A stretch of DNA of 64,000 nucleotides from Pseudomonas gozinkensis. GTDB lineage: Bacteria > Pseudomonadota > Gammaproteobacteria > Pseudomonadales > Pseudomonadaceae. Positions 1,689 to 17,992 of the stretch are shown here, in pieces. The DNA lies in contig NZ_CP062253.1 of NCBI RefSeq assembly GCF_014863585.1, positions 1,390,501 through 1,454,500 on the forward strand, written 5' to 3'. The translations under genes and the position numbers were made by a program. The notes beneath the pieces are model-generated. The model had not been told where the DNA came from. It saw nothing but the letters and a program-made list of their open reading frames with translations, and made no database searches. The stretch's first letter is position 1. Each line of letters starts with the position of its first letter.

Positions 1689-1703
1689 GAAGGGAGTAAC
1701 ACC

Positions 1704-2051: not shown

Positions 2052-2344
2052 GCGGCGCCGTGAAGCTTCAGGTTGCGATCGAAGCTCACGGCGAGCCCCT
2101 GACCGAACTCGTCCTGCGCCGTCCGACGGTGCAGGAGGTGCGAGCGATCAAGGCGCTGCCGTACAAGATCGACAAAAGCGAAGAGGTCAGCCTCGACATG
2201 GACGTGGCGGCCAAATACATCGCCGTGTGCGCCGGCATTCCGCCGTCGTCGGTCAACCAGCTGGACCTGGCTGACCTCAACGCGCTGAGCTGGGCCGTTG
2301 CGAGTTTTTTCATGAGTGCGGCGTCGGAGCCATCACCGACCTGA
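2048..2344 (+). CDS. Tail assembly chaperone, zero-frame product (Mu gp41-like)
   Basis: 98-residue protein of the Mu gp41-like tail assembly family (ELVLRRPTVQEVRAIKALPY near the N-terminus). It sits between tube and tape measure, where long-tailed phages encode tape-measure chaperones. It starts on ATGA overlapping the tube stop. The last ten codons after the T-run (MSAASEPSPT) look unrelated to a fold and are probably what is read when ribosomes do not shift frame; see the frameshift site and the longer fusion product. Confidence 0.88.
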   Translation: MSGAVKLQVAIEAHGEPLTELVLRRPTVQEVRAIKALPYKIDKSEEVSLDMDVAAKYIAVCAGIPPSSVNQLDLADLNALSWAVASFFMSAASEPSPT

Positions 2345-2475
2345 TTTCGGTCGCCTATGACCTGGCCTGGTTCTGGAAGGTTGACCCCGAACAGATGATG
2401 GCCAGGCCACTGGATGTGCTTCGCGAATCGCTGGAGCACGCGCAACGGATCAATGCGATGCAGCAGGTGCAGTGA
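2048..2475 (+). CDS. Tail assembly chaperone, predicted -1 frameshift fusion (gp41-gp41' type)
   Basis: Slippage one base back at TTTTTTC (2305-2311) joins the first 88 residues of the chaperone to 54 more (beginning HECGVGAITDLISVAYDLAWFW), giving about 142 residues and ending at TGA 2473-2475. The downstream frame has no good start of its own, is open from the slip site to the tape measure ATG, and overlaps that ATG. This is the classic short/long chaperone arrangement upstream of a tape measure gene. The shift is predicted from sequence only. Confidence 0.78.
2305..2311 (+). promoter_or_regulatory. Slippery heptamer T TTT TTC for -1 ribosomal frameshift
   Basis: In the chaperone frame the bases read agT TTT TTC, fitting the X XXY YYZ rule for simultaneous slippage of two tRNAs. 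The -1 frame then stays open to 2475. I did not find an obvious pseudoknot by eye. Confidence 0.75.
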
Positions 2476-4046: not shown

Positions 4047-5268
4047 CCGTTTGTTGCCGGCATCCTTTCGCGGTGTCGGCTTCTGGATCGACCAGGCGAA
4101 AACCCCGGTCGGCCGCAAGGGGCAGTTGCACGAGTATCCGCAACGCGACCTGCCGTTTTTCGAGGACCTCGGCCAGCAGGCCAAGACCCACGACCTGACG
4201 GCGTTCATCATCGGTGCCGATTGCCTGGAGCAGCGCGACAAGCTGCTCCAGGCCCTGGAGCAGGGCAGCGGCGAACTGGTGCATCCGTGGCTGGGGCGCT
4301 TGCAGGTCAAGGTCGGCGAGTGCGACATGACTCATACCCGCCAGGACGGCGGGATGGTGACGTTCAGCCTGAAGTTCTACCCGGACCGACCGCTGCCGTT
4401 TCCGACGGCGACAGTCAGCACGCAAAAAGTACTGCTGATCAAGGCCGAAGGTTTGCTCGGTTCGGCAGTGGCGCGCTTCGAACAGGCGATGACCCTGATC
4501 AAGGCCGCGCGGATCGGCATCGCCAATCTGCGCAACAGCCTCACCGGCGTGTACGACGTGATCAAGGAGCAGCTCAAGCCGCTGATCGCGCAGTACAAGC
4601 AGATCACCGAGCTGGTCAGGGCCGTCAAGGAACTGCCCAAGGAAGTGGCGGCGGAATTCAAGGGTTTGCTCGGCGATATCAAGGAGCTGAAGGCGTTCGC
4701 GAAGGAGGGCTACCGTGGCGTGATTGCCGACGTGTCCCAACAACTCGAGGCCATCCGCAAGGCCGATGCGCCGAAAATCACCACCGGCAAGGACACCAAC
4801 GCCGCCGCGCAAGCCATGGCCAACCTGGTGCAGGACACGCTGATCGTCAAAGTGGCGCAATGGGTGGCGTCGATGCCGGTGGCGTCGACGCCGGTGAAAC
4901 TCAACTCGACGCCTTCGCTGGATCAGCAATCGAAGCAGCCGGTCACCCGCCAGGAAGTGCCGGTCACGGATGATCTGCAAACGCTGCAAAAAGCGTTGAA
5001 CGAAGTGCTGCAAATGGCTCAGGACAAGGCCGATCCCGCGCACTATCAGGCCATCGGCGATCTTAAGGAGGCGCTCAATGGGCACTTCAAGGCTGTGGCG
5101 TCGTCCGGTGTGCGACTGGTCAGCAAAACGTTCCAGGAAACCTTTCCGGCACTGGTCGTGGCCTACAAACAGTTTGGCGACGCCACCCGTGTGACCGAGG
5201 TCATTCAGCGCAACGGTCTGTCTCATCCGAGCTTCCCACCCAACGAAGTCAAAGTTTCCCGGGAGTGA
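4033..5268 (+). CDS. Mu gpN-like tail protein (DNA circularisation N-terminal domain family)
   Basis: 411 residues. The N-terminal 90 residues (MNWRDRLLPASFRGVGFWID, EYPQRDLPFFEDLG, then HPWLGRLQV) match the DNA_circ_N domain of Mu gpN. In Mu-like tails this is a structural baseplate/hub protein; the DNA circularisation label comes from the family name. The middle is helical and charged and the end is LSHPSFPPNEVKV. It overlaps the tape measure gene by 14 bases. Confidence 0.9.
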   Translation: MNWRDRLLPASFRGVGFWIDQAKTPVGRKGQLHEYPQRDLPFFEDLGQQAKTHDLTAFIIGADCLEQRDKLLQALEQGSGELVHPWLGRLQVKVGECDMTHTRQDGGMVTFSLKFYPDRPLPFPTATVSTQKVLLIKAEGLLGSAVARFEQAMTLIKAARIGIANLRNSLTGVYDVIKEQLKPLIAQYKQITELVRAVKELPKEVAAEFKGLLGDIKELKAFAKEGYRGVIADVSQQLEAIRKADAPKITTGKDTNAAAQAMANLVQDTLIVKVAQWVASMPVASTPVKLNSTPSLDQQSKQPVTRQEVPVTDDLQTLQKALNEVLQMAQDKADPAHYQAIGDLKEALNGHFKAVASSGVRLVSKTFQETFPALVVAYKQFGDATRVTEVIQRNGLSHPSFPPNEVKVSRE

Positions 5269-5271
5269 GCC

Positions 5272-6315
5272 ATGAACGAGACTGACAACCGCGTCACGCT
5301 GACCGTCGACAACATGGAATACGGCGGCTGGAAAAGCGTGCAGATCACCGCGGACCTGGAGCGCCAGTTCCGCACCTTCAAACTCGACATCACCTGGCAA
5401 TGGCCGGGGCAGACCGTGGATCAGCGGATCAAGGCCGGCGACCCGTGCGAGGTGCGGATCGGCAAGGATCTGGTGCTCACCGGTTATGTGTTCAAGGCCC
5501 CGATCAGCTATGACGGACGGCAGATCAGCCTGAGCATCGAAGGCAGTTCCAAGACCCAGGATCTGGTCGATTGTGCGGCGCGAAACATCCCCGGCCAATG
5601 GCAGGACCAGTCGCTGTTGAGCATCGTCCAGGCCCTGGCCGGGGAATACACGCAGTTTGTGGTCAACGAGATTCCCGAGACCGCGCGCCTGAGCAAACAC
5701 ACCATCGTCCCGGGTGAAACGGTGTTTCAGTCGATCGACCGTCTGCTCTCGCTGTACCGGGTGTTTTCCACCGATGACGCCGAAGGCCGGCTGGTGCTGG
5801 CCAAACCGGGCAGCGGCGGCCGCGCCAGCGATGCCCTGGAGCTGGGCAAGAACATTCTCTCGGCCGACGCACCGATGGATCACAGCCAGGTGTTCTCCGA
5901 GTACCGGGTGATCGGCCAGCAAAAGGGCAACGACAAGAAGAGCGGGGCGGCAGTCAGCGAGGTTGAATCCAGCGCGACCGACCTGAGCTTCAAGCGTCGG
6001 CGTACCACGATCATCAACGAAGGCTCGCAACTGACGTTCGAACTGGCCCAGCAACGGGCCCAGTGGGAAAGCGCCACGCGCATGGGCCGGGCGCTGACCA
6101 CCACTTATCAGGTGCAGGGCTGGCGCCAGTCCAACGGCGATCTGTGGCGCCACAACACGCTGGTGAAGGTCAAGGATCCGGTACTCGGCTTCGATGGCGA
6201 CATGCTGATTTCCAAGGTGACGTATTCACTGTCGGCGCAAGGCTCGGTCACCACGCTGCAAGTGGCGCCGCCACATACCTTCGATCCTGACCCGACGCCC
6301 CCGAAAACAACCTGA
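5272..6315 (+). CDS. Mu gpP-like baseplate hub protein (phage late control D / gp44-like)
   Basis: 347 residues, homologous in layout to Mu gpP (gp44), the trimeric hub of the baseplate under the tube. Visible features are the N-terminal beta-rich segment (NRVTLTVDNMEYGGWKSVQI), VRIGKDLVLTGYV and a C-terminal VKDPVLGFDGDMLISKVTYSLS. It starts three bases after the gpN stop. A 158-base gap filled with a REP pair follows, the largest gap between baseplate genes. Confidence 0.92.
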   Translation: MNETDNRVTLTVDNMEYGGWKSVQITADLERQFRTFKLDITWQWPGQTVDQRIKAGDPCEVRIGKDLVLTGYVFKAPISYDGRQISLSIEGSSKTQDLVDCAARNIPGQWQDQSLLSIVQALAGEYTQFVVNEIPETARLSKHTIVPGETVFQSIDRLLSLYRVFSTDDAEGRLVLAKPGSGGRASDALELGKNILSADAPMDHSQVFSEYRVIGQQKGNDKKSGAAVSEVESSATDLSFKRRRTTIINEGSQLTFELAQQRAQWESATRMGRALTTTYQVQGWRQSNGDLWRHNTLVKVKDPVLGFDGDMLISKVTYSLSAQGSVTTLQVAPPHTFDPDPTPPKTT

Positions 6316-6350
6316 GCCTGACGCCGAACCTGACTGGCATCACCTGACCC

Positions 6351-6440
6351 TGTGGGAGCGGGCTTGCCCGCGATAGCGGTGGTTACCGCAAACACTACTT
6401 TGCCTGACACACCGCCATCGCGGGCAAGCCCGCTCCCACA
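6351..6440. repeat. REP pair (BIME) inside the tailocin baseplate operon
   Basis: TGTGGGAGCGGGCTTGCCCG at 6351 has its reverse complement ending at 6440, with 44 bases between the 23-base arms. The same family occurs at 26385, 29644, 33954 and elsewhere in this window. Here it separates gpP from gp45. Confidence 0.92.
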
Positions 6441-6473
6441 GGTTTTGTGTTGGCAAAGTCCTGAGGACAATTC

Positions 6474-6983
6474 ATGAGCCTACTGACACGCCTGCTGGCG
6501 CGCGGCACTGTCGTGCTCGCCAATTCGGCATCCAAGCTGCAATCGCTGCAAATGCGCCTCACCGCCGGTGAAGTGAACGACGACATGGAGCACTTCGAAC
6601 CCTACGGTTTCACCAGCCACCCGCTGGCCGGTGCCGAAGGTGTCGTCACGTTTCTCGGCGGCGACCGTTCCCACGCCATCGCCCTGGTGGTTGCCGACCG
6701 CCGTTACCGCCTGCAATCGCTGGCGGCCGGCGAGGTGGCGATCTACACCGACGAGGGCGACAAAATTCACTTCAAGCGCGGGCGGATCATCGACATCGAA
6801 ACCGCCACGCTGAACATCCGCGCCAGCACCGCCGTGAATTTCGAGACGCCGGTGATCAACCAGACCGGCAAGATCGTTTCCAAAGGCGATCAGGTGGCCG
6901 GCGGCATCAGCCAGATCAAGCACGTGCATGTCGGCGTGCAGGCAGGCAGTGGCCAGACCGGCGCGCCGGCGGGAGGTCAGTGA
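6474..6983 (+). CDS. Baseplate spike protein (Mu gp45-like)
   Basis: 169 residues. Mu gp45 is the trimeric membrane-piercing spike at the tail tip. The protein has an N-terminal OB-like part (MRLTAGEVNDDMEHFEPYGF, HPLAGAEGV), a beta-helical middle (IDIETATLNIRASTAVNFETPV) and a C-terminal HVHVGVQAGSGQTG segment whose H-x-H matches the metal-binding spike tip of this family. The ATG follows the REP element; GAGGAC upstream is a plausible ribosome site. Its stop overlaps the gp46 start. Confidence 0.93.
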   Translation: MSLLTRLLARGTVVLANSASKLQSLQMRLTAGEVNDDMEHFEPYGFTSHPLAGAEGVVTFLGGDRSHAIALVVADRRYRLQSLAAGEVAIYTDEGDKIHFKRGRIIDIETATLNIRASTAVNFETPVINQTGKIVSKGDQVAGGISQIKHVHVGVQAGSGQTGAPAGGQ

Positions 6984-7381
6984 TGCTTTTCAGTCAAAAC
7001 CTCCACGCCGCGCTCACCCGTGCGGTGCTGATCAGCCTGTTCACCTGGCGCCGTGCCGCCGACGACGATGCCCTCGACGACGAGGAGCGTTTCGGTTGGT
7101 GGGGCGACACCTTTCCCACCGTCGCCGACGATCGCATCGGCTCGCGACTGTGGCTGTTGCGCCGGGTCAAGCTGACCCGACAGACCCAGATGGACGCCGA
7201 GTTCTATGCCCGCGAAGCCTTGCAATGGCTGATCGACGACGGCCACTGCAGCGCCATCGACATCATCAGCGAACGCCTCGACGCCCAGCGCCTGAACCTG
7301 CGCACGGTCCTGACCCTGGCCGACGGCGAACGCCTGGACATCAACCCCGATAACAGTTGGCAGGTGATCTATGCCGTTTGA
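6983..7381 (+). CDS. Baseplate wedge protein (Mu gp46 / T4 gp25-like)
   Basis: 132 residues matching the Mu gp46 family, related to the T4 gp25-type wedge protein that links baseplate and sheath. Diagnostic stretches are RFGWWGDTFP, GSRLWLLRRVKLT and WLIDDG. ATG 6983 is used because GGGAGG lies just upstream and the TGATG overlap couples it to the spike gene; a GTG at 6980 is an alternative. It overlaps gp47 by 11 bases. Confidence 0.93.
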   Translation: MLFSQNLHAALTRAVLISLFTWRRAADDDALDDEERFGWWGDTFPTVADDRIGSRLWLLRRVKLTRQTQMDAEFYAREALQWLIDDGHCSAIDIISERLDAQRLNLRTVLTLADGERLDINPDNSWQVIYAV

Positions 7382-8414
7382 AACCCCTTCGCTGCCGGTG
7401 CTGATCAAGCGCACCCAAAGCGACCTGGCCGGCGATTCGCTGCGCCAGTCCGATGCGCAAGTCCTGGCCCGCACAGTCGGCGGCGCCGCTTATGGTCTGT
7501 ACGGCTACCTCGACTGGATTGCCGAGCAGATCCTGCCCGACACCGCCGATGAATCGACTCTGGAGCGCATCGCCGCACTGCGCCTGAACCAGCCGCGCAA
7601 ACCGGCGCAGGTCGCCACCGGCAACGTCAGCTTCAACGCCACGGCGGGCGCGGTGCTGGACGCCGATACGTTGCTGCAGGCGAGTGACGGCCGCACGTTC
7701 AAAGTCACCGCCGCGCGCACCACCGTCAATGGCGTCAACAGCACCTCCATCGCAGCGCTGGATGCCGGCAGCCTGGGCAACGCCGAGGCCGGCCTGGCGC
7801 TGACGCCGGTGCAGCCGATCACCGGCGTGGTCGGCAACAGTTTTGTGGTGCTGGCGCCGGGACTGAACGGTGGCGTGGCGCGGGAAAGTCTGGAATCGCT
7901 GCGCTCGCGGGTGATCCGCTCCTATCGCGTCATCCCCCACGGCGGTTCGGCCAGCGACTACGAGACCTGGGCGCTGGAAGTGCCGGGCGTGACCCGCGCG
8001 TGGTGCCGTGGCGGCTTCCTCGGGCCGGGCACCGTCGGCGTGTACATCATGCGCGACGACGATCCGCAACCGGTGCCGAATGCCGATCAACTGGCCGAAG
8101 TGCAGGCTTACATCGAGCCGTTGCGCCCGGTGACCGCCGAAGTCCATGTGCGTCCGCCGGTGCAGAAACCGGTGACCTATCAACTGAAGCTGACCCCTGA
8201 CACCACCGCCGTGCGCGCCGCCGTCGAAACCCAGTTGCGTGATCTGCACAACCGTGAAGCCGACCTGGGCGAGGATCTTTTGATCAGTCACATCCGCGAA
8301 GCGATCAGCAGCGCGGCGGGGGAAACCGATCACGTGCTGTCGGCCCCGGTGGCGAACGTGGCCGCGGGTGACAGCGAACTGCTCACCTTCGGGGGTTGCG
8401 TATGGCTGCCATAA
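7371..8414 (+). CDS. Baseplate J-like wedge protein (Mu gp47)
   Basis: 347 residues of the baseplate J / Mu gp47 family, the main arm of the baseplate wedge. Typical segments are IAALRLNQPRKPAQVATGNV, GGVARESLESLRSRVI, HGGSASDYETWALEVPGVTRAW and GPGTVGVYI. The N-terminus starts inside the end of gp46, and the C-terminus overlaps the next gene, so the wedge genes form one tightly coupled unit. Confidence 0.95.
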   Translation: MPFETPSLPVLIKRTQSDLAGDSLRQSDAQVLARTVGGAAYGLYGYLDWIAEQILPDTADESTLERIAALRLNQPRKPAQVATGNVSFNATAGAVLDADTLLQASDGRTFKVTAARTTVNGVNSTSIAALDAGSLGNAEAGLALTPVQPITGVVGNSFVVLAPGLNGGVARESLESLRSRVIRSYRVIPHGGSASDYETWALEVPGVTRAWCRGGFLGPGTVGVYIMRDDDPQPVPNADQLAEVQAYIEPLRPVTAEVHVRPPVQKPVTYQLKLTPDTTAVRAAVETQLRDLHNREADLGEDLLISHIREAISSAAGETDHVLSAPVANVAAGDSELLTFGGCVWLP

Positions 8415-9001
8415 GAACCGCCGCGCAATACCAGGCGCAATTGCGCGCCTTGCTGCCGAGCGGCCCGGCATGGGATCCGGAACGCGTGCCGGAACTCGAA
8501 GAAGTGCTGCAAGGCGTCGCCGTCGAACTGGCGCGCCTTGACGCCCGCGCCGCCGACCTGCTCAACGAAATGGACCCGGCCGGTGTCAGCGAACTGGTGC
8601 CGGACTGGGAGCAGGTGATGAACCTGCCCGACCCGTGCCTCGGCGCCACGCCGCTGTTCGACGACCGCCGCCTCGCCGTGCGCCGGCGCTTGCTGGCAGT
8701 CGGCAGCCAGGCTGTCGGCTACTACCTGGACATCGCCAAAAGCCAGGGTTACCCCAACGCCACCATCACCGAACTCGAAGCCCCGCGCATGGGCCGCTCG
8801 CGTTTCGGTGCGGCGCACTGGGGCACCTGGGAAGCGCAGTTCATGTGGACGCTCAACACTGGCGGGCGGCTGTTGCTCGGCCGGCGCTATGGCGCGAGCT
8901 ATTGGGGCGAGCGCTTCGGCGTCAATCCGGGCTCGGCGCTGGAATGCCTGATCCACAGGGCGGCACCGGCGCATACCAAAGTGCACATCAACTATGACTA
9001 G
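8402..9001 (+). CDS. Baseplate protein (Mu gp48-like, DUF2313)
   Basis: 199 residues. The DUF2313/Mu gp48 family connects the wedge to the tail fibres. The N-terminus (YQAQLRALLPSGPAWDP) and the later CLGATPLFDDRRLAVRRRL are typical. ATG 8402 follows GGGGGT at a good distance; a TTG at 8396 is also in frame but unlikely. It overlaps gp47 by 13 bases. The first fibre gene starts 15 bases later behind GGAAGGAG. Confidence 0.92.
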   Translation: MAAIRTAAQYQAQLRALLPSGPAWDPERVPELEEVLQGVAVELARLDARAADLLNEMDPAGVSELVPDWEQVMNLPDPCLGATPLFDDRRLAVRRRLLAVGSQAVGYYLDIAKSQGYPNATITELEAPRMGRSRFGAAHWGTWEAQFMWTLNTGGRLLLGRRYGASYWGERFGVNPGSALECLIHRAAPAHTKVHINYD

Positions 9002-9015
9002 GAAGGAGTGACGGG

Positions 9016-9951
9016 ATGGATTACCCGAGAAGTGTGCCCGGCTCCGGGCTGGTGGATGGACGATTTGCCGATGAAAACCCGCTGACCGGAACTCCGGGTT
9101 CGTTGATCCCCGCGACATGGGGCAACGGCATAACGGAAGAGCTGCTGAACGTGATCCGTGCGGCGGGGATGGTGCCCTCCGAAAGCGAGTCGGATCAGTT
9201 GCTCAAGGCGCTGAAGAATGTCTTGTCCCAGGACGCGATGCCGTTCGCCGCTTTGGCATTTCCAACGGTGGCCACGGCTGACGGGCGTATTTCAGTCAGC
9301 GCCGCAAGCGCGTCTGCTGGCGGCACCGTGTCGGTGCCGGGCGGTGTGCTGGTCTGCCTCGGTGAAGAAGTTGCCGCCGGCATGACGGCCCGCCCGCGCA
9401 CGTTGCTGACCTCTGCCTGGAGCTCGTCCGGACTGGATATCAACAGCACCTATTTTCTGCGGATGCAGGTGCGCAACGGGGCACTGGTCTGCTACACGCA
9501 AAAAGGCCTCGATACCGATGTGATCCCTGCGGGGATGAAAGCGGGAACCGGCAGCAGTGGCGGTGGTTTCGACTCGACCTGCATCGACATGCTGGTGGCC
9601 AGAGTGGTGACCGCAGGTGCCGGGACTTTACCCAAGCTCACACTGCTGGCGAACAAGGCCCGCATGGAAGCGGTCGGTGTCTGGTCCGGTGCCAATGGCA
9701 ATTACTCGGTCCCGTTGAACTGGGCGCGCAAACCTCGTGCGTACATTGCAGGGATTTATGATTTTGATGACAACGTCAAAACCGACTATGGCGTGATCAG
9801 TGAGGAGATCGGGGTCAACTTTGTCGGTACTCAGTTCATGCCGGAGGGTGGTTTTACCGACCGTTACACGGCGCGTGTCGCGATCGCTGCGTGGTCACAG
9901 AACCTGAGCACGTCAGGTCGGATAAACGCTCGCGTCAGATGGGAGGTTTGA
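9016..9951 (+). CDS. Tail fibre protein 1
   Basis: 311 residues. The N-terminal 60 residues (MDYPRSVPGSGLVDGRFADE, later PGSLIPATWGNGITEE) are the shared attachment module of all five fibre genes here. A middle domain (FPTVATADGRISV to about LLANKAR, residues 75-215) closely resembles the same part of fibre 2. The C-terminal receptor-binding part is unique and ends RINARVRWEV. It starts with ATG behind GGAAGGAG and is followed by its own accessory gene. Confidence 0.9.
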   Translation: MDYPRSVPGSGLVDGRFADENPLTGTPGSLIPATWGNGITEELLNVIRAAGMVPSESESDQLLKALKNVLSQDAMPFAALAFPTVATADGRISVSAASASAGGTVSVPGGVLVCLGEEVAAGMTARPRTLLTSAWSSSGLDINSTYFLRMQVRNGALVCYTQKGLDTDVIPAGMKAGTGSSGGGFDSTCIDMLVARVVTAGAGTLPKLTLLANKARMEAVGVWSGANGNYSVPLNWARKPRAYIAGIYDFDDNVKTDYGVISEEIGVNFVGTQFMPEGGFTDRYTARVAIAAWSQNLSTSGRINARVRWEV

Positions 9952-9953
9952 GT

Positions 9954-10355
9954 ATGAAAGCCATTATCGAAAATGGAGTGGTGACGGCGCTGATGACGGG
10001 TGACGTCGATTGCGGCGTTCCGGTGCCGGTCGGCCTCGCGGTTGCCACAGGCTGGCTGTTCGACGACGAGCGCTTCAGCGCGCCGCCGCAGGTCGATGTT
10101 TCGCCGGATGTGCAAGCCGAGGCAGAGCGCCAATGGCGCACGACAGCGCTCACGGCCACTGACTGGCTGGTGATTCGTCATCGCGACGAACTGGATGTCG
10201 GGGCGCCACCGACCTTGAGCAACAAACAGTTTTCCAAATTGCAGGCCTGGCGCCAGGCGCTGCGCAATTGGCCGGGCTCCGGCGACCTGCCGGATGTCCT
10301 GTCGCGCCCCGAACCACCCAAGTGGCTTGCGCGGTTGTCCCTGCGGGCACCGTGA
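9954..10355 (+). CDS. Tail fibre assembly chaperone-like protein 1
   Basis: 133 residues. The second half has the pattern W-R-T-T-x-L-x-x-T-D-W-L-V-I-R-H-R-D-E-L and LQAWRQALRNWP, shared with the accessory gene at 14866 and with phage tail assembly proteins. ATG 9954 lies 8 bases after GGGAGG. It probably folds or trimerises fibre 1 (inferred from position). A strong terminator follows. Confidence 0.78.
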   Translation: MKAIIENGVVTALMTGDVDCGVPVPVGLAVATGWLFDDERFSAPPQVDVSPDVQAEAERQWRTTALTATDWLVIRHRDELDVGAPPTLSNKQFSKLQAWRQALRNWPGSGDLPDVLSRPEPPKWLARLSLRAP

Positions 10356-10380
10356 ATACGCGCTTGTATCTCTTGAACGA

Positions 10381-10404
10381 CGCCCGCCCTGTGCGGGCGT
10401 TTTT
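10381..10404 (+). terminator. Intrinsic terminator after fibre cassette 1
   Basis: CGCCCGC (10381-10387), loop CCTGT, GCGGGCG (10393-10399), then TTTTT. It stands between fibre cassettes 1 and 2, so read-through or a separate promoter would be needed for the downstream cassettes. Confidence 0.85.
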
Positions 10405-10467
10405 CATCAGTGCGCAAGCTGACCGCCGATCGCTGGAGCCACAGCGAATACCTACAGGAATCTAACC

Positions 10468-11619
10468 GTGGACTATCCAAAGAGTGTCCCCAGCGCCGGA
10501 CTGGTGAATGGGAAATTTGTCGATGAAAACCCGCTGACCGGAACGCCGGGATCGTTGATCCCGGCGGATTGGGGGAACAGCGTCACGCAGGAAATTCTCA
10601 ATGTGATCAAGGCCGGGGATCTGACCCCGGACGAGAAAAAATACGATCAACTGCTGCAAGCGATTCAAAGCGTTTCGGCCAAGGGCTGGAGCCTGGATTC
10701 AGCGTTGCCTGTCGGCTCACTGCCTTTGCCGACCGTAGCGACACCTGACGGGCGCATGCCGATCACGCCAACGGCGGTGCTGACCAGTGGCGGACGTTTG
10801 TCGATTCCTGCCGGCGTGTTTTTGAGCATTGGCCAGGAGGTTGTTGCGGGGCAACTGGGCAGGTCTCGTACGTTCACCACGCAGGCCTGGAGCAGTGCGG
10901 ATCTGTTGCCGACGACCGGCTATTTCCTGAGGGCGCAGGTCAGCGGCGGGGCCCTGACGTTCTACATGCAGCGCGGAACGATCTATGACCCGGCCCCCGA
11001 AGGATTGAAGGGCACCGTCAACAGTGCGGCGGGGGGTGGGTTTCAATCCACGCCGCTGGATATGTGTCTGGCCTGGGTGGTGACCGCAGGGCCAGGGTCG
11101 GTTCCGATCGTCAGGCCGGTCTACAACCGCAAGCATCTGGCATGGAGCCAGACGGTCAACGGTAATGGTGTGGTCTATTTGCCGGTCGATCCTCACGCCC
11201 GGGCGGCACGTCTGGTGGTAGGCAACCCGACACCGCACCCTACAGGCATTACCGGCGTGTCCTTTGCCCCGGGCGGTTGGCTGGGCGGCAACTATTGCTA
11301 CCTGAATCCGACCGTGGGGACTTCGGGCAATTGGGACGGTTGGTCCACTGCCGGTGCGACGGCGTGCATCTTCACCAGCAACGTGCTCAACGACACAACG
11401 GTGTCGACCCTGACTGCCAGCTTCGACCACAACGAGTTGCGCTCTCTCTGGCAGGTCTATCAGGCCGAGCACACGTTGGGCGCCAGTAATGCTTCCAGCG
11501 ACGAACTGCTGTTCAGCATGGGTCTGAAAAACCTGTCACCCGGCGACTACGCCAACGGGGTCGCCATCAATTTCAGCTCGGCGGTCAACGTCAATTTTTC
11601 ATGGGAATTGATTCGATGA
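10468..11619 (+). CDS. Tail fibre protein 2
   Basis: 383 residues starting with GTG. The N-terminal attachment module (MDYPKSVPSAGLVNGKFVDE) is shared with the other fibres. Residues about 90-225 (LPTVATPDGRMPI, AWSSADL, YFLRAQVSGGALTFYMQRG) mirror the middle of fibre 1, showing a duplication. The C-terminal half (from NGNGVVYLPVDP) is specific to this gene. The stop overlaps the start of its accessory gene. Confidence 0.9.
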   Translation: MDYPKSVPSAGLVNGKFVDENPLTGTPGSLIPADWGNSVTQEILNVIKAGDLTPDEKKYDQLLQAIQSVSAKGWSLDSALPVGSLPLPTVATPDGRMPITPTAVLTSGGRLSIPAGVFLSIGQEVVAGQLGRSRTFTTQAWSSADLLPTTGYFLRAQVSGGALTFYMQRGTIYDPAPEGLKGTVNSAAGGGFQSTPLDMCLAWVVTAGPGSVPIVRPVYNRKHLAWSQTVNGNGVVYLPVDPHARAARLVVGNPTPHPTGITGVSFAPGGWLGGNYCYLNPTVGTSGNWDGWSTAGATACIFTSNVLNDTTVSTLTASFDHNELRSLWQVYQAEHTLGASNASSDELLFSMGLKNLSPGDYANGVAINFSSAVNVNFSWELIR

Positions 11620-12131
11620 ACATCATTCAGGAACTGCATCAATTCGAAGAGGGGTTGCGTCCGCTTCAGCCGTCCGCTGCCCATGACTGGGACGGCAAAG
11701 CCTGGGTGCTGGACAGCGCGCGGGCCGGACAACTGGATCAGCAGGCCGCCGAACAGCTGTGCGTGCGGGTCGACGCGGCCGCCGACAATGCCCGTGCCGT
11801 GCTGGCCGGTGATCCGCTCAAGGCGCTGGAATACGCTCAGGCTGCCGTCGACGCGCAAGCCTTTCAGGACGCCGGCTACCCGAGAAACGATGTGCCTCTG
11901 TCCGTCGCAGCCTGGGTCGCCAGAGGGCGCAGTGCCCGGCAGGCTGCCGATCAGATTCTGGACAAGGCGACCCGGCTCAGCGACAGCCTGCTGACCCTGC
12001 GCACCTTGCGCCTGAAGGCCAAGACCCAGATTCGTGCGCTCGCAACCAAAGGTCAGATGGATCAGGCCCGCGCTGCCGCTGATGAGGCGTTGCTGGCCAT
12101 TCGTGGACTGACCGCCAACCTGACTTCGTAA
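11616..12131 (+). CDS. Fibre-associated accessory protein 2 (putative chaperone)
   Basis: 171 residues. The N-terminus has DWDGKAWVLD, seen in tail fibre assembly proteins; the rest is alanine-rich and helical. ATG 11616 overlaps the fibre 2 stop (ATGA), which favours it over an in-frame ATG at 11601. No conserved fold is recognised with certainty; a chaperone role rests on position and size. A terminator follows. Confidence 0.65.
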   Translation: MNIIQELHQFEEGLRPLQPSAAHDWDGKAWVLDSARAGQLDQQAAEQLCVRVDAAADNARAVLAGDPLKALEYAQAAVDAQAFQDAGYPRNDVPLSVAAWVARGRSARQAADQILDKATRLSDSLLTLRTLRLKAKTQIRALATKGQMDQARAAADEALLAIRGLTANLTS

Positions 12132-12150
12132 CCGCAGTTCGCGTCACCCA

Positions 12151-12179
12151 AGCCCACTTCATTGTGGGCTTTTTATTTT
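12151..12179 (+). terminator. Intrinsic terminator after fibre cassette 2
   Basis: AGCCCAC (12151-12157), loop TTCATT, GTGGGCT (12164-12170), then TTTTATTTT. The stem arms are identical to those of the hairpin between the sheath and tube genes. Confidence 0.85.
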
Positions 12180-12259
12180 CAGGAATAGAAGCGTCTGCGC
12201 CGTAGCGAAAGCTTGCGCGCGGCCACGTTTCATTTGTCATTACAGAGGAACGAGCACCA

Positions 12260-13354
12260 ATGGATTACCCAAAAAGTGTCCCCAGCGTCGGCCTGGTCAA
12301 TGGCCGGTTCGTCGATGAAAACCCGGTGGCGGGAACGCCCGGGTCGTTGATACCGGCGGTATGGGGCAACAGCGTTACGCAAGAAATTCTCAACGTGATT
12401 ACCGGCGCCGGGCTGACAGCCGCCGAGGTCGATACCGGTCAGTTGTTCAAAGCCATTCAGTCGATTGTCGGCAACGCCAGTCCGATGCGTTCGGTGGTGA
12501 CGCGGTTGACTGCATCCAAGGCGCTGACCGACCCGGAGCTGGGCCTGGTACTGATCGATGGCGGATCCAGTGCTGTAACGGTGACATTGCCGCCGGCAAA
12601 CGCCGCGCTGGGTGTACGCGATGTGATTGTTCGGCGGATGGACAACAGCGGCAACCGTCTGGTCGTCCAGGCATCGGGTTCCGACCGCATTCGTTTTCAC
12701 ACGCATCTTTCACCCAGCGGTTATCCGTTTCTGGTGTTGATGGGCGGCGGCGACTGGTGGCAGTTGCGCAGTGATGCTGCGGGTAGCTGGTGGCCAGTCG
12801 GCCGGTTTGACAACACCCCCCTTGGCCGGCCGTTTTTCGAGACGACCACCTTGCTCAATCCCGGTGGTTACGGTGCGCTCAACGGTACTGTCATGAAGCG
12901 TGTCGAGTGGCCCTGGCTGTGGGACCACGCCCAGCTTTCCGGGATGTTGGGCACTGAAGCTGCGCGTGCTGGCAACGAAGGCAAATGGACCTCGGGTGAC
13001 GGCGCGGCAACCTTTCGAGGTCCGGAGGGGCGAGGCGAGTTTCTGCGGGTTCTGGACGAGGGCAGGGGCGTGGATACGGGCCGTGCCATGGGTACCTTTC
13101 AGGTCGGATCGACTCATTCGTATGCCATGGGTGCCAATGGTGCCGGTGCGGTAGGGGCGTGGTGGTCGGACGCCCTGACCGGTTTCGGTGCCGATACCCG
13201 TGAAGAGCCGCAATACGTGTCCGGGCTGGTCAACGGTGGCCCCGTCTTCCCTGTCGGTACGAGTTATCAGCGGGATGCGGCCAACGCCTTGCTGCTGGCG
13301 TTCAAATCCCGCCCTCGCAACATTGCCTATCCCGGCCGTATCAAACTCATCTGA
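12260..13354 (+). CDS. Tail fibre protein 3 with collar-like C-terminal domain
   Basis: 364 residues, ATG start behind GAGGAAC. It has the shared N-terminal module (MDYPKSVPSVGLVNGRFVDE). Residues about 75-170 form a beta-rich domain (VLIDGGSSAVTVTLPPANAA). The C-terminal half (PWLWDHAQLSGML, then FRGPEGRGEFLRVLDEGRGV) resembles phage tail collar/fibre tips. This C-terminal type differs from fibres 1 and 2, consistent with a different receptor. Confidence 0.9.
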   Translation: MDYPKSVPSVGLVNGRFVDENPVAGTPGSLIPAVWGNSVTQEILNVITGAGLTAAEVDTGQLFKAIQSIVGNASPMRSVVTRLTASKALTDPELGLVLIDGGSSAVTVTLPPANAALGVRDVIVRRMDNSGNRLVVQASGSDRIRFHTHLSPSGYPFLVLMGGGDWWQLRSDAAGSWWPVGRFDNTPLGRPFFETTTLLNPGGYGALNGTVMKRVEWPWLWDHAQLSGMLGTEAARAGNEGKWTSGDGAATFRGPEGRGEFLRVLDEGRGVDTGRAMGTFQVGSTHSYAMGANGAGAVGAWWSDALTGFGADTREEPQYVSGLVNGGPVFPVGTSYQRDAANALLLAFKSRPRNIAYPGRIKLI

Positions 13355-13361
13355 GGTGCCT

Positions 13362-13928
13362 ATGTTCAATTATCTGTTTGACGGTGCGGGCGTTTTGTCC
13401 GGGCCTGTCGAGTTTTTCGTGACCCCAGGCATTGGTATTCAACTGCCCGGCAACGCGGTGGAGTTGTCGTTCGAATTACCCGCGCCTGAAGCCGGTCGTA
13501 TCTGGGCTTTGATCAACGGTGTACCGCGAGAGGTGATTGACCGGCGGGGTCCGGTTTTTCGCAAGGACGGCGGCGGGCAACAGATCTGGAGTGAGCTGGG
13601 AGAGTTGCCCGATACGCTCACAACGCAGCCTTGGCCGGGGGAGTTCCATGTGTGGCGCGACGACGCCTGGCAGCTGGATGAGCAGGCCCGTTTGCTCAGC
13701 ATCAGCCAACAGGTTCTGGAAAAGCGCGACGCACTGTTGCGCGACGCCGTCCTGCGCATCGCCCCCCTGCAATACGCCGAAGACATCGGCGATGCCAGCC
13801 ACGAAGAGCAACTGCAATTGCTCGAGTGGAAGCTCTACAGCGTGGAGCTGAACCGCATCGAGAAACAGCCCGGTTTCCCGGAGCAAATCACCTGGCCTTC
13901 AGTGCCTGGAACCCGCACAGCAGATTGA
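13362..13928 (+). CDS. Tail fibre assembly protein 3 (Caudo_TAP/Tfa-like)
   Basis: 188 residues. The second half (LLRDAVLRIAPLQYAEDIGD, EEQLQLLEWKLYSVELNRI, then PEQITWP) matches the tail fibre assembly (Tfa) family of chaperones that promote fibre trimer formation. ATG 13362 is chosen over the upstream in-frame starts because those lie within fibre 3; AGGTG precedes it. It lies 7 bases after the fibre 3 stop. Confidence 0.85.
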   Translation: MFNYLFDGAGVLSGPVEFFVTPGIGIQLPGNAVELSFELPAPEAGRIWALINGVPREVIDRRGPVFRKDGGGQQIWSELGELPDTLTTQPWPGEFHVWRDDAWQLDEQARLLSISQQVLEKRDALLRDAVLRIAPLQYAEDIGDASHEEQLQLLEWKLYSVELNRIEKQPGFPEQITWPSVPGTRTAD

Positions 13929-13942
13929 TAAGGAGATGAATC

Positions 13943-14863
13943 TTGGACTATCCCAAAAGCGTACCCAGCGTCGGGCTGGTGAACGGGCAATTTGTCGATG
14001 AGGATCCCGTCGCCGGAAAGCCCGGCTCGCTGATTCCCGCCACATGGGGCAATGGCGTCACACAGGAAATTCTCAGCGTCGTACAGGCCGCCGGCATGAC
14101 GCCCAACGAGGCCAACACTCATCAACTGCTTGATGCATTGCGCAGTCCGGCGCTGTTCACGACGGCAGCACAATTTGATGTCAGCCGATCGGCTGCAACG
14201 GCCGAGTTTGTCCAGCGAGCGCTAGGCAACTACGCCAGCGCTCGCGGCATCTCCGGCTCGACCCAACTGACCCTGGCCGATATCGGCTGTTCGATCGGGA
14301 TGGGCGGAAACGCCGCGTACACCGTGACTTTGCCGGACGCCACTGCGGTGCCCAGCGGTGCGACGATCAGCCTGCACTGCCGAAACAGTGCAGCGGTCAC
14401 GGTTGCCAGTAAAACCGGTACGCAGATAAGCCCCCAAGGGGCTTATCTGGGTTCGATCACGATGAACGCCGGCGAGAGCGCGACCTTTGTCCGGGAGTCG
14501 GGTGTCTGGGTTGTTTATGGCACTGCTGCGTTGAAGTATTCGGCGCTCTATGCGTCGCAGTTCGCCACGGCCGGATATCAGAAACTTCCCAGCGGCTTGA
14601 TCGTGCAGTGGGTGACCGGGGGCTCCGATGCGAATGGCATCATGACGGTGTCGTTGCCGATGATGTTTCCCAATGCTGTCCTCGGCGGGATCGCCAATGA
14701 AGGTTATCCGGCAGGCTGGGGCAGTTCAAACGTCACTGTCTGGGCATTCGACGGGGCCAACTCCACGACATCGACGGTTGTTGCCAGGGTTCGCAATGTC
14801 CTGGCGTCGAGTGTGAAGGCTGAACCTGGAATCTCCGGACGCATATTGGTTTGGGGGCGATAA
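13943..14863 (+). CDS. Tail fibre protein 4
   Basis: 306 residues starting with TTG behind AAGGAG (13930-13935). It has the shared N-terminal module with the variant FVDEDPVAGKPG. The middle resembles beta-sandwich fibre shafts (LPDATAVPSGATISLHC). The C-terminus (GYQKLPSGLIVQWVTGG to GRILVWGR) has the tip pattern common in Pseudomonas tailocin fibres. A perfect 12-base inverted repeat lies in the coding sequence at 14423-14449. Confidence 0.9.
   Translation: MDYPKSVPSVGLVNGQFVDEDPVAGKPGSLIPATWGNGVTQEILSVVQAAGMTPNEANTHQLLDALRSPALFTTAAQFDVSRSAATAEFVQRALGNYASARGISGSTQLTLADIGCSIGMGGNAAYTVTLPDATAVPSGATISLHCRNSAAVTVASKTGTQISPQGAYLGSITMNAGESATFVRESGVWVVYGTAALKYSALYASQFATAGYQKLPSGLIVQWVTGGSDANGIMTVSLPMMFPNAVLGGIANEGYPAGWGSSNVTVWAFDGANSTTSTVVARVRNVLASSVKAEPGISGRILVWGR
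14423..14449. repeat. Perfect 12-base inverted repeat inside fibre 4
   Basis: CAGATAAGCCCC (14423-14434), loop CAA, GGGGCTTATCTG (14438-14449). It encodes in-frame residues (QISPQGAYL region) and lacks a T-tract. Confidence 0.8.
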
Positions 14864-14865
14864 CC

Positions 14866-15306
14866 ATGGCTATTTATTTTTATGCACAGACACGCGGCTT
14901 TGAAGTGGTCGACAGCCCCCATCCGGAGCCGCCTGAAGGCGCCGTGGAAATCACCCGCGTCCAATACGCCGAACTGTTTGCCGGGCAGGCAAGCGGCAAG
15001 GTCATCAGCGCCAGTGCCAGTGGACAACCCGTACTGATAGACGCGGTCATCTCCCCGGCAGTGCTGTCTTCCCGGGAACGCGCGTGGCGCAACAACATTC
15101 TGCAGGACACGCAATGGCTGGTATGGCGTGACGCTGAAGAGCTGGAAGTCGGCGAGGGCACCACTCTGCGCACCGACGAATTCAAACAATTGCTCGCCTA
15201 TCGACAGGCCCTGCGCGACTGGCCCAATGATCCGGAGTTTCCGGATACCCGGGCTCGCCCGGTAGAGCCTGACTGGCTTGAAGGCTTGCTGCGGTCGAAC
15301 GGCTGA
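14866..15306 (+). CDS. Tail fibre assembly chaperone-like protein 4
   Basis: 146 residues. The C-terminal half (WRNNILQDTQWLVWRDAEEL, LLAYRQALRDWPNDPEFP) is clearly related to accessory protein 1 at 9954 and to phage tail assembly proteins. ATG 14866 lies two bases after the fibre 4 stop. It is likely the dedicated folding partner of fibre 4. Confidence 0.8.
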   Translation: MAIYFYAQTRGFEVVDSPHPEPPEGAVEITRVQYAELFAGQASGKVISASASGQPVLIDAVISPAVLSSRERAWRNNILQDTQWLVWRDAEELEVGEGTTLRTDEFKQLLAYRQALRDWPNDPEFPDTRARPVEPDWLEGLLRSNG

Positions 15307-15335
15307 GCCGTTGACCCGATCAAAGAGGAATTAAC

Positions 15336-16538
15336 GTGGATTATCCTAAAAGCGTTCCCGGCTCAGGCCTGGAGAATGGCAAATTCGTCGATGAAGACCC
15401 GATCGCTGGCAAACCGGGATCGTTGATCCCGGCCAGTTGGGGCAACAGTGTGACTCAGGAGATTCTCGGCGCGATCACGGCCGCCGGCCTGACGCCGGAT
15501 GAGGAGCAGACCGATCAACTTGCCCAGGCCATTCGACAACTGGCGAAACCGGATCCGCTGCAGCAGTTTCCTGTGCAGGTGTATCGCAAGAATCTGTTGA
15601 TTAACGGTGGATTCAATATCTGGCAACGCGGCACGACCAATCAGGCGCCGAGCATCGGTGGGTATGTGGCGGATCGCTTCCGGTGCGACTGGAACGGCAA
15701 CGCGGGTATCAGCATTTCGCGCCAGGATTTTGCCCTCGGTCAAACCGAAGTCACGGGCGAACCCGCTTTCTTCCTGCGTTGGCAGCAGGTCACTGCAGGC
15801 ACCGGAGCAACGGTGCATAAAGTCTCCCAGAGTATCGAATCGGTCAGGACCCTGGCCGGGCGAACGGCGACGGTCAGCTTCTGGGCCCGATCCGATGCGA
15901 CGCGTCCGCTGCGAGTCACGATCACCCAGCAGTTCGGGACGGGTGGCTCGGAAAGTGTGGTGAAGGTTGTCGACGTTTTTCAGCTGAGTACTTCGTGGAA
16001 GAAATACAGCGCAACGTTTCAGGTGCCGACCATCGCCGGGAAAATGCTCGGCGTGAATGACTGCCTGACCTTGTCGTTCGATCTGCCGCTCAACGTGTTG
16101 CAGACCGTCGATCTGGCACAGATGCAATTGGAGGAGGGGCCGGTTGCAACACCGTTTGAATACCGTCCCGCGGCGGAAGAGCTGAGCCTTTGTCAGCGTT
16201 ATTTCGAGAAGTCTTTTGCTAACCGTCTGCAGATCCGTTCGAACAATGGTGCCGCCACCTGCATTGGTAACTTCACCCAGGCTGCGGCAGCCAATACCGG
16301 TCAGTACGGTATGAGCGTCGATATGCAGGTGCTCAAGCGCGTACAACCTACCATCGTGCTGTATTGCCCGGGAGATGCGAGCAATCAAGTCTGGAACCAG
16401 GGCTTGATGAAAGCGTGTACCGGGACCTATTTGCAAAGTGTTACCGAACGGAGCTTTGCCATTGGCACCGTGACCCCTGTAGGCAGCGCTCCCGGGCATA
16501 TCTTGCAGATCGAATGGACCGCAGACGCGGAAATCTAG
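15336..16538 (+). CDS. Tail fibre protein 5
   Basis: 400 residues, GTG start behind AGAGGA. It has the shared N-terminal module (MDYPKSVPGSGLENGKFVDE). From about residue 85 it carries a carbohydrate-binding-module-like beta domain (NLLINGGFNIWQRGTT, YVADRFRCDW, LEEGPVATPFEYRP) often found in phage fibres and glycan-recognising proteins. The end (HILQIEWTADAEI) is unique. This C-terminal type shares nothing obvious with the other four. Confidence 0.9.
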   Translation: MDYPKSVPGSGLENGKFVDEDPIAGKPGSLIPASWGNSVTQEILGAITAAGLTPDEEQTDQLAQAIRQLAKPDPLQQFPVQVYRKNLLINGGFNIWQRGTTNQAPSIGGYVADRFRCDWNGNAGISISRQDFALGQTEVTGEPAFFLRWQQVTAGTGATVHKVSQSIESVRTLAGRTATVSFWARSDATRPLRVTITQQFGTGGSESVVKVVDVFQLSTSWKKYSATFQVPTIAGKMLGVNDCLTLSFDLPLNVLQTVDLAQMQLEEGPVATPFEYRPAAEELSLCQRYFEKSFANRLQIRSNNGAATCIGNFTQAAAANTGQYGMSVDMQVLKRVQPTIVLYCPGDASNQVWNQGLMKACTGTYLQSVTERSFAIGTVTPVGSAPGHILQIEWTADAEI

Positions 16539-16549
16539 GAGGCAAATCC

Positions 16550-16792
16550 ATGAGCTATCAACTCACATCGTCTGGCGTTATGCGCCTGAGTGATTCAGCG
16601 TTTATTCCACAAGAGCCGACCAACCGTGACTGGGCGGAGTACCAGGAGTGGCTGGTGTCCGGGGGACAGGTACTGCCACTGGATCCGCCGCTAGAGAGTG
16701 CGACGGCCAATCAAGGCATGCTGGGTTTGTTCAAGCGAATGATCCAGGTTTCCCCGGACAGCACTCTGAAAACTGAGGTAAACAATGGCTGA
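16550..16792 (+). CDS. Small fibre-associated protein 5
   Basis: 80 residues, ATG behind AGGAGG (16537-16542). The stretch MRLSDSAFIPQEPTNRDWAEYQEWLVSGG is a pattern common at the ends of phage fibre operons. It is likely the accessory protein of fibre 5; its function is not known. Confidence 0.7.
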   Translation: MSYQLTSSGVMRLSDSAFIPQEPTNRDWAEYQEWLVSGGQVLPLDPPLESATANQGMLGLFKRMIQVSPDSTLKTEVNNG

Positions 16793-16862
16793 TCAGCTTC
16801 GGTCGCCAACCGTGATTCAATCGGAGCATCCAGGGAGGATCGAGCATTATGCAAATTACTGA
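16785..16862 (+). CDS. Possible 25-residue leader-like ORF overlapping the endolysin start
   Basis: ATG 16785 overlaps the stop of the preceding gene, has GAGG upstream, and reads 25 codons to TGA 16860-16862, just past the endolysin ATG at 16849. It may be only a translational coupler, or not made at all. There is no recognisable domain. Confidence 0.25.
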   Translation: MADQLRSPTVIQSEHPGRIEHYANY

Positions 16863-17412
16863 AGACAACCTACTCAACATCATGCCCAACGCCCGCCGCC
16901 AAGCGGGCGTTTTTGTTTCTGCACTCAACGATGCCATGGCGCGCCACCGCATCGACACACCTAAACGCGTGGCCGCGTTTCTCGCCCAGATCGGACACGA
17001 ATCGGGGCAGTTGCAGTACGTGCGTGAACTGGGCAACAACCAATACCTGAGCAAGTACGACACCGGTACGCTGGCTCTGCGTCTGGGCAATACGCCCGAG
17101 GCCGATGGCGACGGGCAGAAGTATCGCGGGCGCGGGCTGATCCAGATCACCGGCCGCAGCAACTATCGCCAGTGCAGCCTCGGCCTGTTCGGCGATGAGC
17201 GCTTGCTGGCGCTGCCGGAACTGCTGGAACAACCGCAATGGGCGGCCGAGTCCGCCGCATGGTTCTGGGCGCAGAACGGCCTGAATGAACTGGCCGATCA
17301 GGACCAGTTCAACAGCATTATCCGGCGGATCAACGGCGGGTTGAACGGCTTGCAGGACCGGCTGGAGCTTTGGGGGCGGGCGAGGGCGGTGCTATGCCTG
17401 CCTTCGGTATGA
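16849..17412 (+). CDS. Endolysin, glycoside hydrolase family 19 (chitinase/lysozyme-like)
   Basis: 187 residues. It would cut peptidoglycan to release assembled particles. The GH19 fold is indicated by VAAFLAQIGHESG (catalytic Glu), the YRGRGLIQITGRSNYRQ motif, AAWFWAQNGLNELAD and IIRRINGGLNG. There is no signal peptide, so a holin is needed; none is in this window. AGGGAGG precedes the ATG. The stop overlaps the spanin start by 4 bases (ATGA). Confidence 0.93.
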   Translation: MQITEDNLLNIMPNARRQAGVFVSALNDAMARHRIDTPKRVAAFLAQIGHESGQLQYVRELGNNQYLSKYDTGTLALRLGNTPEADGDGQKYRGRGLIQITGRSNYRQCSLGLFGDERLLALPELLEQPQWAAESAAWFWAQNGLNELADQDQFNSIIRRINGGLNGLQDRLELWGRARAVLCLPSV

Positions 17413-17924
17413 GCGTTTGGCGGCTGATCGGCCTGGTGCTGCTGGCTGCGGGTTCGGCGGCACTGGCCTGGCAGTTCCAGGACTGGCGCTACGGCCGCCA
17501 ACTGGCCGAACAGGCGCGGTTGCATGCCGAAACCCTCAATCAATTGACCCTGACGGCCGCCACTGCACAACAGACCGAGCAGGACAAGCGTCTGGCCCTG
17601 GAGCAACGGCTCACGGCCAGCGAACAAACCCATTACCGAGCACTGAACGATGCCCAACGTGATCAGGATCGCCTGCGCGATCGCCTTGCCACTGCTGATC
17701 TGCGCCTGTCAGTCCTCATCGACGCAGGTGACGCTGCCCAAGGCTGCGGTGTGCCAGCCACCACCGGCGCCGGCGGCGTGGATCATGCAGCCGTACGCGC
17801 CCGACTTGACCCGGCGCATGCTCGACGAATTGTCGCCATCACCGGTGAAGGCGACCGCGGACTGATTGCCTTGCAGGCCTGCCAGGCCTATATCAGAGCG
17901 CTGGCGCCTGCACATTTTGAATAA
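17409..17924 (+). CDS. Inner-membrane spanin (Rz-like)
   Basis: 171 residues. The N-terminus is one membrane helix (WRLIGLVLLAAGSAALAWQF), followed by a long coiled-coil periplasmic region (LAEQARLHAETLNQLTLT to RDRLATAD). This is the Rz i-spanin layout that fuses inner and outer membranes in the last lysis step. ATG 17409 overlaps the endolysin stop. A second gene (Rz1) is nested in another frame. Confidence 0.85.
   Translation: MSVWRLIGLVLLAAGSAALAWQFQDWRYGRQLAEQARLHAETLNQLTLTAATAQQTEQDKRLALEQRLTASEQTHYRALNDAQRDQDRLRDRLATADLRLSVLIDAGDAAQGCGVPATTGAGGVDHAAVRARLDPAHARRIVAITGEGDRGLIALQACQAYIRALAPAHFE
17650..17865 (+). CDS. Outer-membrane spanin lipoprotein (Rz1-like), nested in Rz
   Basis: 71 residues entirely inside the Rz gene in another frame. 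It has a short signal peptide ending in the lipobox LLICAC and is proline-rich afterwards (CQPPPAPAAW), as expected for Rz1 o-spanins. It pairs with the Rz protein across the periplasm. Confidence 0.85.
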   Translation: MPNVIRIACAIALPLLICACQSSSTQVTLPKAAVCQPPPAPAAWIMQPYAPDLTRRMLDELSPSPVKATAD

Positions 17925-17992
17925 GCTTGTGTATTGAAAGCGCAACCGGCTCGTGTACGGTGGTACCCATTCCATCCGATCCGGAGCGCGCC

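Follow-up and report, generated by a model that had tools for sequence, protein, structure and literature searches.

The window analyzed here, a 64,000-nucleotide stretch of the Pseudomonas gozinkensis genome (bases 1390501-1454500 of the single contig, genome 6.56 Mb), contains a Mu-like R-type tailocin in which one contractile-tail chassis is followed by five consecutive fibre genes, each with its own accessory gene. As judged from sequence, the array is an ordered row of slots, and the locus probably combines a single Mu-like R-tailocin chassis with five alternative receptor-binding fibres that are maintained as a panel and would be made together and compete for the same sites. The recurrence of the same fibre kinds in the same order, with swapped tips, suggests a maintained specificity panel and not leftovers. 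Taking a multi-fibre tailocin as one with at least two intact fibre genes behind one chassis, five such genes were found. The array comprises the following features, and fibre types (t1, t2 and so on) were set at 45% identity and 70% coverage.

9016..9951, + strand: fibre gene F1, ATG start, 311 amino acids, type t8
9954..10355, + strand: accessory gene A1, ATG start, tail-fibre chaperone family; matches Phage_tail_APC with an expectation value (E) of 1.2e-4, below the cut-off, and PHROGs 8716 and 188
10380..10404, + strand: predicted intrinsic terminator after cassette 1, with an 8-bp stem, a loop of 5 and a T-run
10468..11619, + strand: fibre gene F2, GTG start, 383 amino acids, type t2, related to F1
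11616..12131, + strand: accessory gene A2, PHROG 8983, with weak links to tail-fibre-assembly families
12150..12179, + strand: predicted intrinsic terminator after cassette 2, from the pattern search
12188..12231, + strand: predicted second hairpin between this terminator and F3, from a single-sequence fold
12260..13354, + strand: fibre gene F3, ATG start, 364 amino acids, type t1, collar-type (PHROGs 1858 and 523)
13362..13928, + strand: accessory gene A3, tail-fibre chaperone; Caudo_TAP (E 1.4e-18) and Phage_tail_APC
13943..14863, + strand: fibre gene F4, TTG start, 306 amino acids, type t3, R-pyocin-tip-like
14866..15306, + strand: accessory gene A4, tail-fibre chaperone; Phage_tail_APC (E 1.1e-7) and PHROG 188
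15336..16538, + strand: fibre gene F5, GTG start, 400 amino acids, type t6, carbohydrate-binding-module-like
16550..16792, + strand: accessory gene A5, 80 amino acids, PHROGs 34019 and 20370, both without known function

The five fibres share an N-terminal module, as the initial annotation had claimed. All five are intact open reading frames (ORFs) on the + strand, each preceded by a Shine-Dalgarno-like stretch, and their N-terminal 68-70 or so residues align without gaps, with 54-60% identity to F1 and 32 invariant columns, PGSLIPA-WGN among them. At the DNA level, the module is a 199-nt direct repeat in five copies, each 70-75% identical to the reference copy; therefore, the shared module is not a product of chance. 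The ends differ, and the initial description of them was right in outline. F1 and F2 are related, with 42% identity over the full alignment and matches to phrog_17588 along their length. F3 matched tail-collar fibre families in PHROGs and no Pfam family in the Pfam search. The C-terminus of F4 matched Pfam Gp53-like_C (E 8.9e-11), and the AlphaFold2 model of this fibre (mean predicted local distance difference test score, pLDDT, 71.8; residues 1-36 below 50) had, in a Foldseek search of the PDB, the R2 and R1 pyocin fibres as its first matches, the best being the R2 pyocin fibre 6ct8 (E 9e-7, 121 columns); the model also matched phage AP22 gp53. Against solved structures, the F4 sequence gave a weak R2 pyocin match (E 0.049), and the F2, F3, and F5 sequences gave no match at E 0.1. 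F5 matched CBM_4_9 in Pfam (E 4.7e-7) and PHROG 4492 over residues 2-400. Each fibre is followed by its own accessory gene, although the description of these genes as mostly unrelated was too strong; A1, A3, and A4 are chaperone relatives that have a tail-fibre-assembly C-terminal family (Phage_tail_APC / Caudo_TAP) in common, with A1 under the curated cut-off.

The module was found in 98 of 298 genomes of the genus (window included) at E 1e-6, with at least two copies in 49, at least three in 36, and at least five in 13. R-type pyocins have one fibre and one chaperone, and the contrast with them in the initial annotation made the locus look unusual; however, several modules per genome are common in the genus, and the array is ordinary within part of Pseudomonas. 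In an order-wide sample, five of 293 genomes carried the module, of which three were outside the genus with one weaker copy each. Loci for comparison were picked by their similarity to the modules of the window and came from 34 of the 36 genus genomes with at least three modules (the window and 33 others, with G050 and G073 left out), from seven genomes with one or two modules, and from named organisms (the best 80 of 124 matches). All of these best 80 named loci belonged to Pseudomonas, as did the single match in a phage collection. In all 34 examined genomes with at least three modules, at least three cassettes lay within one stretch of at most 20 kb. Collapsing identical N-termini reduced 109 genomic loci to 90 distinct loci, with 311 cassettes. 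A module relative was also encoded by 448 viral stretches in IMG/VR, of which the best 80 were kept (79 loci, L078-L156). Terminase_6N, the only family tested in them, was found in one of 14 long IMG/VR records, which may be fragments; many of these records may thus represent tailocins entered as viruses. The order, accessory, and dN/dS (ratio of nonsynonymous to synonymous substitution rates) counts exclude the 79 viral-collection loci.

The fibre types follow a fixed order, which is t8-t2-t1-t3-t6 in the window. Among the first 41 loci, 211 of 221 type pairs were in the majority order (2000 shuffles: mean 149, maximum 167), and among 72 arrays with at least two main types, 427 of 446 pairs followed one order (shuffles: mean 272, maximum 297). 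After the first count had shown type t4 in two positions, this type was divided by length into a first-slot t4a and a fourth-slot t4b, and the majority order then held for 441 of 447 pairs (shuffles: mean 275, maximum 303), the exceptions being L217 and L220 (t6 first) and L070 (t9 last). Types t6 and t7 both occupy the last position and co-occurred in none of the 72 arrays (expected 8.9), independently of the t4 split, whereas the exclusion of t3 and t4b and that of t2 and t4a (0 each; expected 7.0 and 6.8, respectively) arise from that split. The loci hold 1 to 6 cassettes, any one of t2, t1, t5, and the last slot can be absent, and 45 different type orders were found among the 72 arrays. 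Because the species are related and the loci were chosen by similarity, the order counts are to be read as a pattern, not as formal probabilities.

The modules themselves are constant at some positions. Among residues 5-42, 15 positions were invariant across the 274 modules belonging to the twelve main types, and the tips were divergent; residues 1-4 were used to set the start, and seven of the 311 cassettes without DYP there were dropped. Modules of one type had an identity of 0.838 between genomes, and modules of different types one of 0.671 within a genome and 0.674 between genomes. The last two values are about equal, which indicates that modules belong to fibre types and are not homogenized; gene conversion within a genome is rejected on this comparison. 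A slot-specific module common to the alternatives of one slot was also considered and is weakly indicated by an identity of 0.705 between slot-mates (10 type pairs) vs. 0.669 for the others (56), a difference carried by slot 1, and the t6/t7 slot-mates reached 0.63.

Tips are exchanged slot by slot. In comparison with Pseudomonas pharyngis (L040, the same array as the named L157), the window was mostly 85-100% identical in 60-nt windows, with dips to 76%, and strong divergence, down to 38%, occurred solely from about 12376-12466 to 13726. The left breakpoint lies near the end of the F3 module and the right one, at about 13726, inside the conserved end of the chaperone A3. The synonymous divergence (dS) of F3 was 1.09, that of the four remaining fibres 0.20-0.29, and, on these sequences, the F3 (t1) tip is exchanged relative to P. 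pharyngis. Among 63 close array pairs with 197 cassette comparisons, 140 cassettes were replaced, 46 were kept, and 11 were between, and 35 of the 63 pairs held both kept and replaced cassettes. In replaced cassettes, DNA identity was 0.88/0.81 in the module and 0.68 in the tip, and was back up to 0.78 at the accessory end. The similarity of tips followed that of their own accessory genes with rank correlations of 0.17-0.80, vs. -0.17 to 0.23 for tips of different slots, and t2 fibres were followed by a same-cluster accessory gene in 49 of 49 cases. The median tip identity was 0.42 for t3 and 0.57 for t1 vs. 0.71-0.75 for t2, t5, and t7, a difference that would fit hypervariable t1 and t3 slots.

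The fibres are under constraint. Purifying selection acts on all ten tested fibre types, with median dN/dS values of 0.07-0.13 (0.071 for the upstream gp48 gene), calculated only from pairs with dS of 0.1-0.9 (4 to 101 pairs per fibre type). Relative to P. pharyngis, dN/dS was 0.060 for F1 and 0.053 for F2, and accessory genes were looser than fibres (0.10-0.39 in seven types). Fibre ORFs were shorter than 215 residues in nine of 311 cassettes, one of them through a contig end, a count that copies with a broken module would escape. The initial annotation had named decay of four of the five fibres in relatives as a ground against its own reading. The low dN/dS and the few short ORFs indicate that the downstream fibres are not decaying at the species level, and decayed spare copies are ruled out at that level.

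Internal terminators mark particular positions in the array. With a pattern of the authors' own, terminators were found after 40 of 49 t2 cassettes (shuffled expectation 0.2), seven of eight t8 cassettes, and two of three t11 cassettes, as opposed to 0 of 59 for t1, 0 of 28 for t5, one of 34 for t3, 0 of 10 for t4a, and 0 of seven for t9. Terminator-like sites in the whole region were no commoner than in shuffles (9 vs. 9.2), and it is their position that stands out. The fold of 12145-12262 had a z score of -2.76 for the whole stretch, terminator included, and displayed the second hairpin, whose outer stem of at least four pairs recurred with variable sequence in 53 of 59 relatives vs. 18.3% of mononucleotide shuffles. 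Viral-collection loci supplied 23 of these 59 sequences, which were selected for the terminator stem, so that the constancy of that stem among them is by construction. RNAalifold called the terminator stem and left the second hairpin uncalled; this hairpin is predicted from single-sequence folds and a reading of the alignment. Integron-like cassette sites, considered for the hairpin before F3, were dropped because the element was observed solely after t2-, t8-, and t11-type cassettes. A search of 8300-17500 against Rfam gave three matches at E up to 5, none reaching the gathering score of its family. A further, strong terminator-like hairpin (16888-16911, nine pairs and then TTTG) falls within the first part of the endolysin gene (16849-17412) and might limit transcription of the lysis genes.

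The tailocin lies between mutS and cinA/recA, as do other Mu/SfV-like R-type tailocins of that site, and includes contractile sheath, tube, tape measure, and baseplate genes. The surrounding genes are as follows.

C1:1370875-1373481: mutS, upstream of the tailocin
140..1636, + strand: tail sheath, the start of the Mu-like R-tailocin chassis in the window (Pfam Phage_sheath_1 and Phage_sheath_1C)
1674..8414, + strand: tail tube, tape measure, two baseplate hub genes, gp45-like spike, and gp46- and gp47-like baseplate wedge genes; PHROG labels tail tube, tail protein, tape measure, baseplate hub, and baseplate wedge
6474-6983, + strand: the gp45-like spike among them (Pfam Phage_Mu_Gp45 and Apex)
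8396..9001, + strand: gp48-like baseplate protein, presumed to be the fibre-bearing subunit (Pfam Phage_Mu_Gp48, E 6e-26)
16849..17924, + strand: lysis genes for an endolysin and an Rz-like spanin (PHROGs 181 and 2466)
17927-18493: CinA
18565-19635: RecA, with RecX further downstream

The best sheath match was 97-100% identical in all six array-bearing genomes searched, and a gp48 homologue was the ORF just before the first fibre in 84 of the 90 distinct loci, a different ORF having been picked in the other six. In addition to its own lysis genes, a CI-like repressor gene is present (L228:10632-11402) at the mutS end, beside a neighbouring P2-like tailocin. Terminase_6N, the sole head or packaging family searched individually, had no match anywhere in the genome. 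The P2-like R-tailocin is a second one, located between mutS and the Mu-like one (L006:2834-5593 and L228; C1 about 1373481-1390000). Its only fibre, of 919 residues, matches Phage_tail_fib and Collar, and the gene after it matches DUF4376 and a tail-fibre PHROG. In the same tailocin, L006:8074-8580 matched a PHROG with the label head closure. Elsewhere in the window, the minus strand carries a pair of tRNA-Met genes (38339-38415 and 38620-38696) separated by about 200 nt.

These features are consistent with a course of events in which all five fibres would be made after induction, each forming its own trimer with the aid of its own chaperone. The trimers would compete through the common module for the same fibre sites on the baseplate, and one lysing cell would release a cocktail of specificities. 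The terminators after cassettes 1 and 2 would probably make the upstream fibres the most abundant, barring a promoter or antitermination. Tip exchange would be ordinary homologous recombination, with crossovers in same-type modules and in chaperone ends; such a route would also explain why the order is hardly scrambled, and no switch would be involved. The suggestion in the initial annotation that one locus offers several specificities gains from the common module, the divergent tips, the low dN/dS, and the P. chlororaphis precedent described below, whereas its argument from unusualness does not stand. Several points weigh against a co-made panel of this kind. Expression of all five fibres, like the attachment of the module to the baseplate, which is deduced from position and conservation, is presumed from sequence. 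The conserved terminators could leave the downstream fibres little made, reduced downstream expression is plausible on the predicted signals, and a simple consensus scan gave no + strand promoter within the array. Type t6 has two accessory families (18 and 10 of 28, the last cassettes being read by a looser rule), the correlation between t7 tips and their own accessory genes is weak (0.17), and in t7 the accessory gene stays at 0.88-0.90 while the tip changes. Unlike those of other types, t4a tips follow gp48 (0.70, 10 loci). In replaced t3 and t6 cassettes the module is barely above the tip (0.76/0.70 vs. 0.61 and 0.78/0.69 vs. 0.67, respectively). The structure model of F2 (t2) was poor (pLDDT 44) and unusable, and the correlations and counts are drawn from related species and are thus non-independent.

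Another explanation is that display is largely confined to the first one or two fibres, with the rest serving as a poorly expressed reserve for recombining new tips. The terminators agree with this, as they follow t2, t8, and t11 and hardly any downstream type, and the window has two of them. However, downstream types are under similar purifying selection (median dN/dS 0.086-0.131 vs. 0.070-0.112 for first-found types), fibre ORFs of at least 215 residues were present in 302 of 311 cassettes, and arrays beginning with t4a lack the terminator, as does t9; this reading is considered unlikely. The very strict order, the mutual exclusion of slot alternatives, and the resemblance of F3 to collar-type short fibres would also fit a division of labour, in which the five proteins have different structural roles on every particle (e.g., side fibre, short collar-type fibre, and tip lectin) and the order is an assembly programme. 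With the same module on all five proteins, no separate attachment is evident, and the slots are dispensable; such a programme is considered quite improbable.

Different trimers might instead be mixed on one baseplate, giving broadened or avidity-based binding. The common module and the single gp48-like neighbour offer no visible basis for sorting, and on the other hand the three P. chlororaphis fibres are described as assembled in three distinct complexes in PMC12090994; mixed particles are possible, but are doubted here. Switching among the five fibres of a single strain, by phase variation or recombination, is hardly credible. The module repeats, being in direct orientation, could recombine, but the order is fixed, exact 30-nt runs were present in only 0.9% of 430 same-genome module pairs of different type, and inverted repeats in the array (four pairs at a minimum of 18 nt) are short and imperfect (18-20 nt, 83-89% complementary). 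The view in the initial annotation that no invertase or recombinase gene is visible holds for Resolvase and Phage_integrase, the two families searched. Resolvase had a single match in the genome and Phage_integrase eight (seven over the cut-off), all outside the locus, the nearest being about 120 kb before mutS. Switching by an invertase or integrase is rejected on these grounds, and the combination of invertase and inverted crossover sites that defines invertible fibres of the carotovoricin or Mu Gin type was not found. The co-made panel of five competing fibres is retained as the probable reading.

Several fibres on one Pseudomonas tailocin have already been reported. According to one review, a P. 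chlororaphis tailocin has three fibre genes that yield three distinct complexes and a wider killing range (Dorosky et al., 2018, via PMC12090994), and such a tailocin with distinct particle types gives the earlier idea a precedent. The window differs in having five cassettes, and slots, exclusion, tip exchange, and terminators are unmentioned in section 8 of PMC12090994. An array of the same family in P. chlororaphis EA105 (L193; six cassettes, sheath 97% identical) may correspond to the reviewed tailocin. That multiple fibre genes may widen the range is an idea also cited in PMC10598620. The P. fluorescens Q8r1-96 tailocin (EU982300, L007; Mavrodi et al., 2009, PMC2647930) shares the mutS-cinA locus and the tail genes and contains three fibre/accessory cassettes, t2-t1-t3, two fewer than the window. 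PMC2647930 names extra tail-fibre and collar genes, and the portion consulted does not describe a shared module or slots. This sequence is filed as 'Pseudomonas phage DVM-2008', although PMC2647930 reports a tail cluster without integrase and head genes.

Fibre exchange at conserved flanks also has a parallel. In carotovoricin of Pectobacterium, the fibre region recombines between species at conserved flanks that include the conserved first half of the fibre gene, as stated in PMC13195805. Carotovoricin, however, has a single fibre locus, and 172 of 365 such loci contain an invertase (PMC13195805), whereas the window has several slots that are exchanged separately and no invertase. The R-type pyocins of P. 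aeruginosa are likewise contractile tailocins, and the F4 tip resembles the R2/R1 pyocin fibre tips. Their chassis is P2-derived, and tailocins are said to have typically just one fibre gene (both PMC12090994); their site is between trpE and trpGCD (PMC10598620). No description of ordered slots, exclusion, or internal terminators was found in the sections available from the open-licence literature searched. The initial annotation had overlooked the slot order, the slot-wise tip exchange, and the terminators.

A further, more tentative proposal is that the locus is an addressed and dose-ranked recognition system, which is held here as possible at well below even confidence. The type-specific modules and chaperone ends would be the addresses for importing single tips from other species while leaving the remaining slots intact, and the position of a slot relative to the terminators would set the dose of its fibre. 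If the dose ranking is true, position determines how the particle population is divided among the specificities. The conserved terminators lead to a concrete prediction on fibre ratios. If the addressing is true, this Pseudomonas clade shares a combinatorial system in which bespoke panels are drawn from a common pool of tips. The slot structure turns several fibres into countable haplotypes that can be compared across species, and the locus family provides a testable case of one chassis with several fibres, each specificity of which would be able to evolve alone.

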